A DNA stretch of 20,518 nucleotides from a virus: the IMG/VR virus record IMGVR_UViG_3300031951_016635, positions 1 to 20,518 of that record. One strand, written 5' to 3'. Below the pieces are notes generated by a model that made no database searches, was not told the origin of the DNA, and saw nothing but the letters and a program-made list of their open reading frames with translations. Both the position numbers and the translations under genes were made by a program. Positions 13,343-20,518 of this stretch are shown one piece after another. Position 1 is the stretch's first letter. Each line of letters begins with the position of its first letter.

Positions 13343-14846
13343 GTCAATTCATCGTTCATATTTCAGTAGAAACAATACTATATTGTCTAACAGTTATGTT
13401 AATACAGGTAAATCACCTTATACACAACTATACTTTGGTTCCGCAGATAACGTAATTGCATCACCAGGATTTAGTCGTTTTATTTTTGATTTAGATTTAA
13501 GTTTACTTATTGAAAAAATTCAAAATAATACGATTTCAACAGGATGTACTGGTTTTTCAGGTATAACTCATACACTTAAAATGACAAATACATCATCTTT
13601 TGACAAAGAAGGATTGATGAATGAATTTACAAGTCAGGGTAGATTAAGAGCAACATCATTTGATTTAGTGTTGTTTAGAATACCTTTAACTTCAGGAAAT
13701 ACAGGTTCGGCTCAAAATTGGGATGAAGGTGTGGGATACGACTATTATGATGTACAAAGAACTTTAAATTCAAATAACGGTTTATTGTCACCAATCGCTT
13801 TACCACAAGATAAATCATATTCACAAAGACCATCAAATTGGTATCAAACAACAACATTAGATAATTGGTCTACAGAAGGGATTTATAATAATAGAAATAC
13901 AGGTTCTTCGGGTACTGTAAACTATTCGGCTTTAACAATAGTTGACACTCAACATTTTGAGTTTGGAAATGAGGATATTGAATTTGATATGACAAATGAA
14001 ATTAATCAAATCCTTACAGGTTCCACAACAGGATTTACAGGTTGGGGTGTTGCATTTTTACCTGAATTAGAAAATTTAACAGGTTTAACTGAAAACTATT
14101 CAGTTGGATTTTTCACAAGACATACACAGACATTTTATGAACCTTATTTAGAAACTACATATAATGATTTAGTTTTGGACGATAGAAATTCATTCTATTC
14201 AAATAATTCTAACAACTTATATCTTTATACGTATATTGATGGTAACCCAATTACTTTAGATGATTTACCTGTTGTAACAATAGAAAATAATATGGGAACA
14301 GTTGTGGGTACATATACTGCATGTACTACAACACAAGGGGTTTATGGTATAAATGTAAATTCATTAACTGCTACTACTCCTTGTATGTTTACAGATACTT
14401 GGTCAAATTTATCTTACAATAATATTGCGTTACCTGACGTGGTAAACGATTTAACTTTATTACCTTACAAGTTTGGGTTTTCGTTATCACCTAATAGTAA
14501 AGAACCTGACTTATATGGTTTTGATTTTTACGGTATCAAACAAGATGAAAAAGTTCTAAACACAGATATTCGTAGAGTCGGAGTTATAATCAAAAAGGCG
14601 TACACATCACAACAAATATTAACACCTGTAAGTTCATATTATAGAGTTTATGTGATGGAAGGGACAACTGAAGTAGAAGTCCAATCTTGGACACAAGTTA
14701 ACCGAAGCTCCAACGAATACTATTTCGTTTTTGATACAAGAGATAAAATCCCAAATGAATACAATGTCGACATAAAAGTATATTCTTCAGGTGAAGTTAA
14801 TACTTATAAAAAAACACTCACATTTCAAATAGTTAACAAAAAATGA
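13341..14846 (+). CDS. probable tail/baseplate beta-sandwich structural protein
   Basis: A 501-residue, Ser/Thr/Asn-rich, beta-strand-rich protein. Residues about 25-275 resemble the DNRLRE-type beta-sandwich seen in surface and carbohydrate-binding proteins: SRFIFDLDLSLL near the start, a repeated T-G-rich loop (STGCTGFSG and TGSTTGFTG), an internal 'FDMTNEINQIL' strand, and the closing YEPYLETTYND. The remainder, about 300-500, looks like further Ig-like strands (VTIENNMGTVVGTYTA, YVMEGTTEVEVQSW). There is no signal peptide. The gene follows the hub gene by 21 bases and overlaps the next start by ATGA. A fibre, adhesin or baseplate-appendage role is inferred from composition and position; the domain match is tentative. 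Confidence 0.58.
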   Translation: MSIHRSYFSRNNTILSNSYVNTGKSPYTQLYFGSADNVIASPGFSRFIFDLDLSLLIEKIQNNTISTGCTGFSGITHTLKMTNTSSFDKEGLMNEFTSQGRLRATSFDLVLFRIPLTSGNTGSAQNWDEGVGYDYYDVQRTLNSNNGLLSPIALPQDKSYSQRPSNWYQTTTLDNWSTEGIYNNRNTGSSGTVNYSALTIVDTQHFEFGNEDIEFDMTNEINQILTGSTTGFTGWGVAFLPELENLTGLTENYSVGFFTRHTQTFYEPYLETTYNDLVLDDRNSFYSNNSNNLYLYTYIDGNPITLDDLPVVTIENNMGTVVGTYTACTTTQGVYGINVNSLTATTPCMFTDTWSNLSYNNIALPDVVNDLTLLPYKFGFSLSPNSKEPDLYGFDFYGIKQDEKVLNTDIRRVGVIIKKAYTSQQILTPVSSYYRVYVMEGTTEVEVQSWTQVNRSSNEYYFVFDTRDKIPNEYNVDIKVYSSGEVNTYKKTLTFQIVNKK

Positions 14847-15358
14847 AAAAACTTATAATATCTGAAAATGAATATGTAAAACTTTTAAAGTTTTTACTGT
14901 CAGAAAACATGGAACCAGGTGAAGTTCAAATTGACAAAATTCTTGACAAAATAAGTGAATTCGGAATGGAATCAATTACACCTGAAGAAAGAAAAACATT
15001 AGAAGATTTTTCAAAGGGAATTGTCCCACAAGAACCTGAAGAAAAAGAAGATTTTATTGATAGAAGCAGTGACTTATGGGTTTTTGAATTTCCAGGTATG
15101 CCAACTTTCAGATTTAGGTATGAATCAACTATGAATGATGAGAATGAAATAATTCATACAGGTTATTTAACTGTAGATAATAATGATTACTACGGTGAAA
15201 TTTACTGTGACAAAGATGGGAATTTTAGTGTTGCAGATTTCGAAAATACCACTGAAGGAACCAACTTGTTTGAAGATTTTGAAGGATTGGAGCACGATAT
15301 AGAAGTGTTTTTAGATGTTGTCTGTAATGACCTAAAAGAAGATGATATGACCGTATAA
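14843..15358 (+). CDS. acidic protein with possible cleaved N-terminal head-targeting segment
   Basis: A 171-residue acidic protein of unknown family. It begins with an amphipathic helix, MKKLIISENEYVKLLKFLLSEN, in which L19-S20-E21 fits the (L/I)-x-E rule of T4-type prohead protease. A linker (ITPEERKTLEDFSKG, PQEPEEKED) leads to a compact C-terminal domain from about 75 (WVFEFPGMPTFRFRYES, TGYLTVDNNDYYGEIYCDKDGNFS), probably mostly beta. It is coupled to the preceding structural gene by an ATGA overlap, and the next gene starts one base after its stop. It may be an internal or minor virion protein (inference). Confidence 0.6.
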   Translation: MKKLIISENEYVKLLKFLLSENMEPGEVQIDKILDKISEFGMESITPEERKTLEDFSKGIVPQEPEEKEDFIDRSSDLWVFEFPGMPTFRFRYESTMNDENEIIHTGYLTVDNNDYYGEIYCDKDGNFSVADFENTTEGTNLFEDFEGLEHDIEVFLDVVCNDLKEDDMTV

Positions 15359-15359
15359 T

Positions 15360-15815
15360 ATGAAAAATTTAGACGCACAAATTAAGAAAATTTTAAAAGA
15401 ACAATCTGACAGATATATGTTCTTCAGTAATCTTGAACAAATGAGAAGACAATGTGACCTATTGTTAGATTTAGAAAGAGATATGGTTGATTCTATTTTA
15501 GATAATGGACACGATTGGGCACAAGACCATATTGCTGAAGCTAAAAACAATTTAGACCAAGTATTTGATTTTTTAATGAATGAAACAAAAAAAGATGGTA
15601 TGGAATTGTCTATGAATATAGATGATAAAGATATGGTAATGTCTGAAGGTCGTAAAAAAACGGGAACTAAATTATGTGCTCGAGGTAAAGCGGCAGCAAA
15701 GGCCAAATTTGATGTGTACCCAAGTGCTTATTCGAATGGGTTCGCCGTCCAAGTTTGTAAGGGAAGTAAAGCAGGTTTAGATGGTAAAAGAAGGTGCTCA
15801 CCGCCTTATTGTTAA
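15360..15815 (+). CDS. protein with C-terminal basic YPSAY phage domain
   Basis: A 151-residue protein. The N-terminus, MKNLDAQIKKILKEQ, is a short basic helix ending in L12-K13-E14. The middle (20-92) is helical and acidic. From about 97 the protein switches to a basic module, GRKKTGTKLCARGKAAAKAKFDVYPSAYSNGFAVQVCKG, of the 'aakakF.vyPSAYang.a..v.kg' type found at the ends of various phage proteins, with Cys at 106, 133, 146 and 151. The function of that module is not established; its basic, Cys-bearing nature would suit nucleic acid or metal binding (inference). It is the last gene of the tail unit, and a weak U-rich hairpin follows. Confidence 0.62.
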   Translation: MKNLDAQIKKILKEQSDRYMFFSNLEQMRRQCDLLLDLERDMVDSILDNGHDWAQDHIAEAKNNLDQVFDFLMNETKKDGMELSMNIDDKDMVMSEGRKKTGTKLCARGKAAAKAKFDVYPSAYSNGFAVQVCKGSKAGLDGKRRCSPPYC

Positions 15816-15837
15816 AAATAGTAATTTTACTTTTTTT
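15814..15837 (+). terminator. weak AT-rich terminator
   Basis: A short stem (AGTA/TACT, flanked across one mismatch by A5/T5) is followed by nine T residues right after the stop at 15815. It has very little GC, so it would be a weak intrinsic terminator. Its position at the end of the structural run supports the call. Confidence 0.4.
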
Positions 15838-15859
15838 TTAAAAAAATTTACGTGTGTAT

Positions 15860-15879
15860 CCATATATTTATAAATATGG
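15860..15879 (+). repeat. inverted repeat containing the HNH gene start codon
   Basis: CCATAT (15860-15865) and ATATGG (15874-15879) are perfect arms around ATTTATAA. The right arm contains the ATG at 15876. The centre is also the palindrome ATATTTATAAATAT (15864-15877), which includes an exact TATAAATA. Pairing would hide the start codon in mRNA that reads through from upstream. Confidence 0.42.
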
Positions 15880-16361
15880 AAACACATAAGACCTGTAAAA
15901 TTTGTAATACAACAAAACCAATAGAAGAGTTTTATCAATCTCAACGAACATTAAAGTGTAAAATATGTTCATTGGAAATTTCAAAAAAATACAAAAAAGA
16001 AAAAAGAAAAGATATTGAATTTCGAAAAATTGAAGCCGATAAACAAAAAGAAAGAAGAGTTAGGTTATGGCAAAATACTTTAATACACGATTCTAAAAAT
16101 AGAGGTGTTGAACACACCTTAACCATTGATGACATTAATCAATTATTTCAAAAACAAAATGGGTTATGTTATTGGTTCAAAATTCCTTTAATACCCTCAA
16201 ATGACTCTAAACATCCACAACAACCTTCATTAGATAGATTAGATAGAACCAAAGGTTATACACTCGATAATGTGGTATTGACTTGTTATTCCGCAAACAT
16301 TGGGAGGAACGAAACTTCTGTAGAAGATTGGGAAAAATTTTTAATTTTGTTGTTTAGTTGA
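15876..16361 (+). CDS. HNH-family homing-type endonuclease
   Basis: A 161-residue protein from the ATG at 15876. A GTG at 15852 would add eight residues but has no support and lies before the palindrome. The N-terminus carries a zinc-finger-like pair, C7-x2-C10 and C28-x2-C31, with KPIEEFY between them, as in many phage HNH proteins. A basic helical linker follows. The HNH-like core has FQKQNGLCYWFKIPL, then HPQQPSLDRLDRTKGYTLDNVVLTCYSANIGRN, matching 'psiDRidn.kGYt.dNv.lvc...N'. Family members nick or cut DNA and often spread as free-standing homing genes. It sits alone between two 40-60-base gaps in the plus-strand run, consistent with later insertion. Confidence 0.8.
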   Translation: METHKTCKICNTTKPIEEFYQSQRTLKCKICSLEISKKYKKEKRKDIEFRKIEADKQKERRVRLWQNTLIHDSKNRGVEHTLTIDDINQLFQKQNGLCYWFKIPLIPSNDSKHPQQPSLDRLDRTKGYTLDNVVLTCYSANIGRNETSVEDWEKFLILLFS

Positions 16362-16380
16362 TTTTTTAATTTTATATTTG
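16350..16380 (+). promoter_or_regulatory. Bacteroidetes-type promoter candidate
   Basis: TTG (16350-16352), a 20-base spacer and TATATTTG (16373-16380) match the TTG / TAnnTTTG pattern of primary-sigma promoters in Bacteroidetes. It lies 19 bases before the ATG at 16400 and overlaps the end of the HNH gene. Chance matches are common in DNA this AT-rich. Confidence 0.4.
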
Positions 16381-16399
16381 TAGTCAAATCATAAATGAC

Positions 16400-16804
16400 A
16401 TGAATATATTTAAGAAAGCTTGGGTTAAGTATCGTCTATACTTACGTAAATTAGACCGAAAGGACCTTGAATTTGACATTTATATGTCTAACGTGAGGAA
16501 ATGTTCCACCATATGTCGAAAACTCATCCATTCGGAAGATTCTGAACTTATTATTGCACCTATTTCAGATAAGAAATATATTCGTAACGATAAGTTAGGT
16601 ATATTCATAACTATGGATGGTGGTCAAGTTACATTAACAAACCACACTTACAGTTATTTCATAAAGTTAAACAAAACTCAATGGGATAAACTGATAAATT
16701 TCTTCAGAAAAGAAATGGAGTTTCGAGCAATGGAGATTGAAAAAGAATTAGAATCACAAATTAATCATTCACTTGATAATATTTATAGTAAAATAAATCT
16801 ATAG
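16400..16804 (+). CDS. unknown protein with own promoter candidate
   Basis: A 134-residue protein, not recognised. It opens with a basic helix (MNIFKKAWVKYRLYLRKLDRKD), has a beta-rich centre (SELIIAPISDKKYIRNDKLGIFITMDGGQVTLTNHTYSYFIKL) and ends in a long charged helix (FFRKEMEFRAMEIEKELESQINHSLDNI). It has two Cys (35 and 39), no signal peptide and no membrane segment. An ATG six bases upstream, at 16394, opens a frame that stops at once, so 16400 is the likely start. A host-type promoter candidate precedes it, so it may be expressed earlier than its structural neighbours. Confidence 0.58.
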   Translation: MNIFKKAWVKYRLYLRKLDRKDLEFDIYMSNVRKCSTICRKLIHSEDSELIIAPISDKKYIRNDKLGIFITMDGGQVTLTNHTYSYFIKLNKTQWDKLINFFRKEMEFRAMEIEKELESQINHSLDNIYSKINL

Positions 16805-16814
16805 AAAAATTATT

Positions 16815-17060
16815 ATGTCAAATTTAGATAACAAAATTAAGAAAGCATTAAGAGAAATGTCAGAAGAACCTGAATACGGAAGATTAGATAGAAGTTTAGT
16901 TCAAGATGTAATTGATAGATTACTTTCTGATGAAACAGGTGAATACAAAAGAGCGTTAGAAACTTTGAACTCTGAATATGGTACAGGTCAATATAACAGA
17001 CCAAAGAGAGAATATGAACCTTTAAGACCAGGTATTAGAGTTAGTAAAAGTATTTATTAA
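16815..17060 (+). CDS. small protein with L-R-E site and PLRPGIR motif
   Basis: An 81-residue charged protein. Its start, MSNLDNKIKKALREMSEE, closely parallels that of the 151-residue protein encoded at 15360 (NLD-x-x-IKK-x-L-[KR]-E); in both, L-x-E falls at residues 12-14. The C-terminus, EYGTGQYNRPKREYEPLRPGIRVSKSIY, contains PLRPGIR, which recurs as PLRPGLR in the converging minus-strand protein. No catalytic motif is visible. It may be a small internal head or virion protein (inference). Its TAA stop interlocks with that of the opposing gene in a shared TTAA. A strong terminator begins 28 bases later, inside the opposing gene. Confidence 0.6.
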   Translation: MSNLDNKIKKALREMSEEPEYGRLDRSLVQDVIDRLLSDETGEYKRALETLNSEYGTGQYNRPKREYEPLRPGIRVSKSIY

Positions 17061-18004
17061 TCTAAAGCCTTTCTAATTAAATTGATTAAGACCGATTCGT
17101 TGGTCTTTTTCTTTTTTGGTTTGTATGATGTCATAATTGGTTTTTGTCCCTTACCTGTTTGAGTGTCTTGTTTTTCAGCTTTTCTTTTCTGTTGACAAGC
17201 TGCACGTTTTGCCGAGTCAGACATTTTTCCAGCAACGCCTGCGGCACGACATTTAGGATACGCACCTTTAGAAGTGTCAGGTCTACCACAAGGCGGATGT
17301 TTACCATCAACTTTTTTACATATATTAACCCATGGTCCTTTTGGTTGTTTACTACCCTTTGGTTTTTTCTTTTTACCAAACCAAACCGCCAAATCTTCTT
17401 TGATTGTATCTACATCATGTGTTGGGATTTCATATCCACTATCTTTGTGTTTTTCCCAAACACCAACAACCTTTTTGATATTATTTTTTAGTTTCTTTTG
17501 TTTGGCTTTGTGGGTTGTATGATGGTCACTATCTTCAACAAATGGACCAAGTTCGGATTGTCTCCATTTTTTTAACCCTATTTCAATTGGACCCGAATAT
17601 TCACCCGCACTTAAAGTAGTATCAGTACCTTCTTTAATTTTTTTCTTTCCAAAAACTTTTTTAAATAATTTATCATTTGGTGGGTTTTCATTCAAACTAC
17701 CTCCATCATCATCATTTAATACAGGATGTTTTTTATCCGATTTGGAAATTGCATATGCCGTTTCTTCTTTTCTTTTAACGCCCCTTGTTTCAATATTACC
17801 ATCTAACGAATCAATATATATTTCAGCATTATGATAACCATTTAATGGTTCAGTAAATGGTTCCAAAATGTTTTTGTCCCATAATCTTAAACCAGGTCTT
17901 AATGGGACTCTATAACTACCAGCGTCACCTGTAGACGTTGATTCTAATAAATAATCATCATATTCTTTAACCTTTTTTAATATTTCTATTATACTACTTT
18001 TCAT
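17057..18004 (-). CDS. repeat-containing protein with YPKCR-type C-terminal module
   Basis: A 315-residue basic protein. Residues 1-21 form a helix ending in L19-L20-E21. Two related units follow: about 24-52 (GDAGSYRVPLRPGLRLWDKN..LEPF) and about 129-156 (SAGEYSGPIEIGLKKWRQS.LGPF), a duplication. Each unit is preceded by an (L/I)-x-E triplet, the second being I123-K124-E125. Residues 175-300 carry VVGVWEKHK, HDVDTIKEDLAVWFG, GPWVNICKK, PPCGRPD and YPKCRAAG, then a Lys-rich tail; this is the 'W.ni....pCGR..yPkCra' module known from phage proteins of unknown function. It lies next to the capsid gene region on the same strand. It may be an internal or minor head protein. Confidence 0.65.
   Translation of the reverse strand: MKSSIIEILKKVKEYDDYLLESTSTGDAGSYRVPLRPGLRLWDKNILEPFTEPLNGYHNAEIYIDSLDGNIETRGVKRKEETAYAISKSDKKHPVLNDDDGGSLNENPPNDKLFKKVFGKKKIKEGTDTTLSAGEYSGPIEIGLKKWRQSELGPFVEDSDHHTTHKAKQKKLKNNIKKVVGVWEKHKDSGYEIPTHDVDTIKEDLAVWFGKKKKPKGSKQPKGPWVNICKKVDGKHPPCGRPDTSKGAYPKCRAAGVAGKMSDSAKRAACQQKRKAEKQDTQTGKGQKPIMTSYKPKKKKTNESVLINLIRKALD
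17088..17117 (+). terminator. intrinsic terminator inside the opposing gene
   Basis: AAGACCGA (17088-17095) pairs with TTGGTCTT (17100-17107) through one G-T wobble around a TTCG loop. TTTTTCTTTTTT-type sequence follows. It fits termination of plus-strand transcripts from the 16815 gene. The same bases encode about residues 300-306 of the minus-strand protein. Confidence 0.72.
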
Positions 18005-20247: not shown

Positions 20248-20259
20248 TTTATTTATTAT
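20248..20259 (-). promoter_or_regulatory. late-promoter-like box upstream of the capsid gene
   Basis: The minus strand reads ATAATAAATAAA, containing AATAAATA (one mismatch to the T4 late box TATAAATA). It lies 28 bases before the capsid start and overlaps the stop of the preceding gene. The same 12-mer precedes the minus-strand gene ending at 17057. Support is by position and repetition only. Confidence 0.4.
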
Positions 20260-20518
20260 TTAATTATTTTTGACATAATATCTTTCATACGAAGGAATTG
20301 AGGGTTCTCGTAAGTTTTAGATTCAATCAGATTAACTGCTGAACCTGACTGTGGAACTTTTTCAATTACTCTTTCGATAGATTCTGTCATTGGAGCTTTG
20401 GTTTGTGGACCGTGAAGCTCTTCTTTTATTGTCTTGTATAAAGCTTTAGATTCTTTAAGAGATTCTGCAGAATCAAATCTTCTTAAAATGTTAATCTTTT
20501 CTTGCTTAGATGTAGAAT
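20256..20518 (-). CDS. 3' end of a gp22-position scaffold-like protein (partial)
   Basis: An open minus-strand frame enters from the window edge and stops at 20256-20258. It gives the last 86 residues of a charged, helix-rich protein with pieces such as KQEKINILRRFDSAESLKES, LYKTIKEELHGPQTKAPM, ESIERVIEKVPQSGSAVNLI and the end NPQFLRMKDIMSKIIK. It lies 36 bases upstream of the gp23-like gene on the same strand. In T4 that place belongs to gene 22, the main prohead scaffold, whose product is also helical and highly charged. The assignment is by position and composition, not by a recognised motif. The start lies outside the window. Confidence 0.6.
   Translation of the reverse strand, partial: STSKQEKINILRRFDSAESLKESKALYKTIKEELHGPQTKAPMTESIERVIEKVPQSGSAVNLIESKTYENPQFLRMKDIMSKIIK

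Follow-up and report, generated by a model that had tools for sequence, protein, structure and literature searches.

Four small proteins encoded beside the major capsid gene gp23 of a T4-like phage begin with short leaders that are likely to be detachable head-targeting propeptides of the T4 kind, cut by a gp21-type protease. The data show that such leaders are shared and swappable, that the Glu at their boundary is constant despite variation of the leader, that the protease of relatives keeps its catalytic residues, and that gp23 and gp21 carry sites of like form. Docking, cleavage, location in the virion, and injection are inferred. The T4 protease gp21 reportedly cleaves behind L/I-X-E, and the capsid targeting sequences of T4 are propeptides of 10-20 residues at the N terminus (PMC9026906, PMC5694885). 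In T4 IPIII, an Asp at position 10 prevents processing while targeting still takes place (PMC9026906).

Four Leader Genes Adjoin gp23

The window analyzed here is the whole of a 20,518-nucleotide stretch of viral DNA (IMG/VR record IMGVR_UViG_3300031951_016635, a 20.5-kb virus record). It is a fragment of a T4-like phage in which gp23 is followed downstream by a series of small genes. A preliminary description, made from the sequence alone, had claimed four nearby open reading frames with short N-terminal helices ending in L-x-E. All four frames and their leader residues held exactly as described. The features are as follows.

14843-14905 (+), leader of the 14843 gene, residues 1-21 MKKLIISENEYVKLLKFLLSE, ending at Glu-21 before Asn; predicted cut after 14905; hydrophobic-x-E kept in 10/10 close orthologues
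14906-15355 (+), body of the 14843 protein with a DUF6576 domain (Pfam PF20216, E 1.9e-9)
15360-15401 (+), leader of the 15360 gene, residues 1-14 MKNLDAQIKKILKE, ending at Glu-14 before Gln; predicted cut after 15401; [ILV][ILV]xE in 29/29 relatives; separate helix 2-13 in the model
15402-15812 (+), body of the 15360 protein, composed of a helical bundle, a disordered linker, and a basic Cys-containing C-terminal module
15645-15647 (+), possible second cut in the 15360 protein after E96 (MSE^GRKK); E96 invariant in 29/29, P3 Met in 19/29
16815-16856 (+), leader of the 16815 gene, residues 1-14 MSNLDNKIKKALRE, ending at Glu-14 before Met; predicted cut after 16856; hydrophobic-x-E in 6/6 homologues
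16857-17057 (+), body of the 16815 protein (open reading frame)
17063-17101 (-), C-terminal helix of the 17057 protein, residues 302-314, short-leader-like; possible C-terminal propeptide (weak)
17396-17398 (-), predicted internal cut in the 17057 protein after E203 (TIKE^DLAVWFG); Glu before DLAVWFG in 33/33
17630-17632 (-), predicted internal cut in the 17057 protein after E125 (KIKE^GTDTTLSAGEYSGP), preceding a repeat of the N-terminal block
17942-18004 (-), leader of the 17057-18004 gene, residues 1-21 MKSSIIEILKKVKEYDDYLLE, ending at Glu-21 before Ser; predicted cut after E21; boundary Glu kept in relatives, whose leaders have ~7 to 22 residues
18339-20219 (-), gp23 major capsid protein (Pfam PF07068, Gp23, E 7e-72), with a LINE^A site after E60
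20256-20516 (-), C-terminal part of a scaffold (gp22-like) gene truncated by the window end; in relatives, the gene upstream of gp23 ends in the same C-terminus

The leaders are 14 or 21 residues long in the window and 11-25 in relatives. The reading of these proteins as internal head proteins, offered by the preliminary description, would have been refuted by homologues lacking L-x-E at the boundary. Such homologues were looked for and mostly not found, so that the reading passed: the site is retained in 29/29 (15360), 6/6 (16815), and 10/10 (14843, close orthologues) cases, and the Glu before the DLAVWFG block in 33/33 members of the 17057 family. The one exception is a distant 14843 homologue (L174), in which the Glu is absent at the leader end. 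The reading is thus supported; presence in the virion, cleavage, and injection are inferred.

An AlphaFold2 model of the 15360 protein, of moderate confidence, has the leader as a separate helix (residues 2-13), a break at residues 14-16, a bundle, and a disordered stretch containing E96. A Foldseek search with this model returned nothing at E <= 0.001. Residues 102-137 of the protein match phrog_27331 (E 8.5e-14).

Eighty gp23 relatives were collected, with 73-86% identity over the best segment. Large contigs were read as 20-kb pieces and joined before gene calling; the ORF caller was a simple one, and some starts may have been missed or misplaced. In two of the relatives (G001 and G003) a reverse-strand ORF resembling bS21 lies between the portal and protease genes, a layout matching that of the bS21-encoding Bacteroidetes myoviruses, in which bS21 and the core structural genes are co-transcribed late (PMC9723584). 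In the bearing sections of that paper the leader is undescribed and the neighboring hypothetical proteins are unexplained.

The Shared Leaders Are Beyond Chance

The preliminary description had cautioned that L-x-E is common, and this caveat held. The motif [ILV]xE is found near residues 9-26 in 44% of all proteins of these phages, and [ILV][ILV]xE in 24%. Because of this background, L-x-E alone is weak evidence, and it was dropped as proof. What does exceed chance is the conservation of the boundary in relatives, the occurrence of common leaders on non-homologous proteins, and the swapping of leader types on a single body.

Viral contigs were scanned with a DNA pattern fixing residues 1-12 (MKK[IV]xxLTESDL), and proteins of >= 60 aa were kept. 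Of the 96 proteins recovered, 93 have Glu at residue 22, a position that the pattern leaves unfixed; the remaining three carry a 3-residue insert followed by [IL]xE (position 25). Residues 13-22, likewise outside the pattern, read xRIVKRVIxE. Conservation ends after the Glu, and the bodies fall into 67 clusters. P3 is Ile in 73 proteins, Leu in 18, and Val in 5, and P1' is varied. The concern in the preliminary description that Gln, Met, or Asn is not typical after the cut is weakened, because Gln is the commonest P1' residue (36/96) in this wider leader set.

In 257 Gb of genome sequence from bacteria and archaea the same pattern turned up only three times, twice on contigs of one bin that also contains an S77 gene. 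The third occurrence is a 53-aa truncated ORF (L453:2169-2330 (+), SYAL01000047.1, Bacteroidota bin) whose class B leader is perfect and ends in VISE; it is apparently a phage relic. A tblastn search of phage records with a 23-aa consensus leader gave no match, a null result attributed to a query too short for the method.

N-terminal and internal segments were also compared among proteins with non-homologous bodies within one genome. Similar pairs numbered 34 at the N terminus versus 0 internally in G001, 140 (from 50 proteins) versus 1 in the 296-kb relative G021, and 96 (from 21/59 proteins) versus 0 in a 50-kb piece of the huge phage LR756508. Control contigs G037 and G041 gave 1 and 0 N-terminal pairs, respectively. 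No N-terminal sharing was detected in G002 (99 kb) at the cut-off used, and no N-terminal linkage was seen within the 50 kb examined of the huge phage LR756502.

Leader Types Interchange on the Same Body

The body of the 15360 protein (YMFFSNLEQ...) carries short leaders (e.g. MEKLIKKILKE) in 13 of 29 relatives and long LTES-type leaders in the other 16, and every one of these leaders, short or long, ends in [ILV][ILV]xE. The leader of the 16815 body is short in the window but of the long LTE type in the G001 homologue. Among 17057 homologues, some leaders are as short as MEQQLNE and MKKNRISE and others reach 20 or more residues, and one homologue (in L015) has a leader of the ISESEK type. Leaders and bodies are therefore separable, and leader types are interchangeable.

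Predicted Internal Sites and Modules of the 17057 Protein

Sites of the same form lie inside the 17057 protein. Its N-terminal block is repeated (E21^STSTGDAGSYRVP versus E125^GTDTTLSAGEYSGP), and each copy directly follows a Glu. The DLAVWFG block is immediately preceded by Glu in all 33 proteins, with Ile, Leu, or Val at P3 in 31 and Thr or Phe at a few sites. The position of the block varies from residue 7 (MEQQLNE^DLAVWFG) to after residue 226 in a fusion, and in stand-alone proteins such as L070:2529 and L041:8248 the Glu-DLAVWFG boundary is the leader end. In the 15360 family, the invariant E96 stands ahead of the basic C-terminal module. The 17057 protein, and perhaps the 15360 protein, may be chains of modules separable by the head protease, a possibility in which cleavage is itself inferred. 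The structure model of the 17057 protein had a mean pLDDT of 49, and only its terminal helices were usable.

C-terminal helices in this family (NEGLRSIIKNILNE, ENQLESLVKSIVKE) look like N-terminal leaders; examples are L046:8484-9176, L030:10412, L013:5375, and L213:3499. T4 Alt has a reported C-terminal propeptide, with which the C-terminal helix of the 17057 family is possibly comparable.

The residues that would follow the cut are AASTADSGSFET in gp23 and STSTGDAGSYRV in the 17057 protein, and across relatives both families read A-T/S-S-x-x-S-G-S-F/Y. In the 17057 protein, this start may be a copy of the N-terminal arm of the capsid protein.

Protease and Sites in gp23 and gp21

No protease gene lies in the window, which does not reach that place. 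Looked for elsewhere, as the preliminary description had suggested, a gp21-type (Peptidase_S77) gene was found in 16/16 large gp23 relatives examined. The catalytic His and Ser of T4 gp21 (H85 and S140) are invariant in 12 aligned relatives, T4, and the Flavobacterium phage immuto. The N termini of the gp21 relatives themselves keep GKGIL[IV]E or close variants, consistent with an LIE site that has been noted for T4 gp21 (PMC9026906). The (I/L)-x-E site that the preliminary description placed after residue 60 of gp23 also held; it is LINE60^A, and its P4-P1 residues are identical in 78/78 distinct relatives.

Among 20 large contigs picked solely by the presence of the leader, 15 contain both the S77 protease and gp23 and 5 contain neither. 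The protease was found in 2 of 20 control contigs picked by an unrelated 14-mer (p 7e-5 versus 15/20). The control contigs were shorter on average than the leader contigs, and so the size of this enrichment is uncertain. The G001 contig has a gene for a small protein with a class B leader at 61583-61879, between the protease and scaffold genes.

What the Leader-bearing Bodies Are

Comparison of 114 leader proteins with Pfam, PHROGs, and NCBIfam matched few families. The Pfam domains found included peptidoglycan-binding, VanY, OmpA, DHH, SET, and DUF6576. Class C leader proteins with VanY, PG_binding_1, or OmpA domains are encoded at L100:16907-18487 (-), L098:12107-13216, and L170:10657-11727 (-). 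Cell-wall domains are unexpected for cargo inside the head and count against the explanation preferred below. Possibly these proteins work in the periplasm as the phage enters, or the class C leader has a different meaning.

Proposed Mechanism and Alternatives

In the explanation that we favor, the short amphipathic leader helix would dock the newly made protein on the prohead core, as inferred by analogy with T4, and the protein would be enclosed while the shell forms. The gp21-type serine protease would then cut after the Glu of [ILV]-x-E and the helix would leave, with the body staying in the head with the DNA and possibly entering the cell at infection. The system would be an expanded one, in which interchangeable leader types serve dozens of unrelated bodies, some with further [ILV]-x-E sites. 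Against this explanation stand the absence of proteomics and the lack of any likeness between the leaders and T4 MKTYQEFIAE beyond the site.

The leader could instead be a helix that docks on the head or core and is never removed, the Glu being merely the helix end. No cleavage data exclude this, and the helix in the 15360 model does end at residue 13. We nevertheless consider it unlikely, because the Glu and the P3 hydrophobic residue persist through changes in the sequence, type, and length of the leader, which can be as short as MEQQLNE, and because gp23, gp21, and the internal boundaries have the same site. It is similarly unlikely that the leader targets the proteins elsewhere (tail, periplasm, or replication site), with another protease or none. 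Such a destination is favored by the peptidoglycan-binding, VanY, and OmpA domains that occur in proteins with class C leaders; against it, the site equals those of gp23 and gp21, gp21 and gp23 occur together on leader contigs, and leader genes adjoin and lie within the head operon.

The shared N termini might also be recombination scars, gene starts copied together with upstream DNA and encoding a functionless peptide. In favor of this, identical residues of paired leaders in G021 share a codon at a frequency of 0.659 versus 0.503 expected, and some copying there is therefore recent. In G001, however, codon sharing is at background (0.547 versus 0.529 expected from genome codon usage), which argues that selection acts on the peptide. 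Moreover, similarity ends exactly after the Glu across 67 body clusters and leader types interchange, making scars very improbable. Chance, for which the background frequencies given above (44% and 24%) would speak, is all but ruled out by the conservation of the boundary in 29/29, 33/33, and 96/96 proteins.

Relation to Known Systems

Cleaved propeptides are thus our preferred reading, and the principle of a capsid targeting sequence removed by gp21 is already known from T4. T4 IPI-III and Alt (PMC9026906, PMC5694885) resemble the present proteins in having a ~10-20-residue propeptide with an L/I-x-E end on unrelated small proteins and a gp21-type protease. The T4 system differs in having about four cargo proteins rather than tens, and it differs from the several swapping leader types and the internal sites in fused modules seen here. 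By inspection, the leaders have no sequence kinship with T4 MKTYQEFIAE beyond the site. Since sequence kinship was not met, they are analogous to the T4 sequences and not shown to be homologous. In phiKZ and SPN3US (PMC10052503, PMC5694885, PMC9026906), many head proteins are cut after Glu by a gp21-related protease, and many are ejected. However, the phiKZ motif is S/A-X-E, whereas P3 here is Ile, Leu, or Val, and S/A was not met; the SPN3US propeptides are mostly 111-254 residues long, unlike the short leaders here. P1 DarB (PMC9024508) also has an N-terminal signal that loads an antirestriction protein into the head, but it is one large protein. A search of the open-access literature found no paper on this leader set and no phage paper with the leader strings (LTESDL etc.). 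New elements are the scale of the system, leader types that can replace one another, sites inside the proteins, and prediction from the leader.

Capsid targeting sequences have been suggested as a possible general route of cargo uptake for T4-like phages (PMC9026906). A bolder reading, to which we incline by a narrow margin, is that T4-like and huge phages possessing a gp21-type protease have a general packaging code. It would be written in lineage-specific leader dialects ending in hydrophobic-x-E, each common to tens of unrelated proteins, and packaged cargo, including polyproteins split in the head, could be listed from sequence. The dialects named so far are LTESDLxRIVKRVIxE, ISEEEKxRILxLH...LxE, LxERKLRxIVKEEIxxVLxE, and FKQFLSE.

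Phage proteins that are injected along with the DNA are the first to act during infection and are able to counteract host defences. Such proteins have been identified in few phages, and recognizable folds among them are rare. If the reading is correct, packaged proteins would be predictable from sequence alone, and the leader mark would make many proteins of abundant Bacteroidota phages that are now only hypothetical into virion-cargo candidates open to testing. It would also reveal recruitment of cargo by addition of a leader and provide delivery tags for this Bacteroidota phage group.

Leaders in Other Phages

In the examined piece of the huge phage LR756508.1 (L394, positions 150001-200000), the 21/59 proteins carry a related leader, MRLSERKLRRIVKEEISRVLRE; the S77 match of this phage is split in two by an insert. 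In the control contig G038, where an S77 protease is present, neighboring proteins (165879-169510) start MISFKQFLSE, which is very close to T4 MKTYQEFIAE.

Immuto (NC_055915.1; L135, L391) is a cultured relative. The Flavobacterium phage paper of Nilsson et al. (2020) does not name immuto-type (FspM) phages and contains no mass spectrometry. Three immuto proteins share MENFDLKKFLVENKLTxNSKxLxE, and two share MKKQILSEQFxRMQxLAGIITE. Possible mature starts, which are predicted only, lie directly after MENFDLKKFLVENKLTTNSKILKE, MKKQILSEQFKRMQFLAGIITE, and MGKVNKAYIENIIKEILSE.
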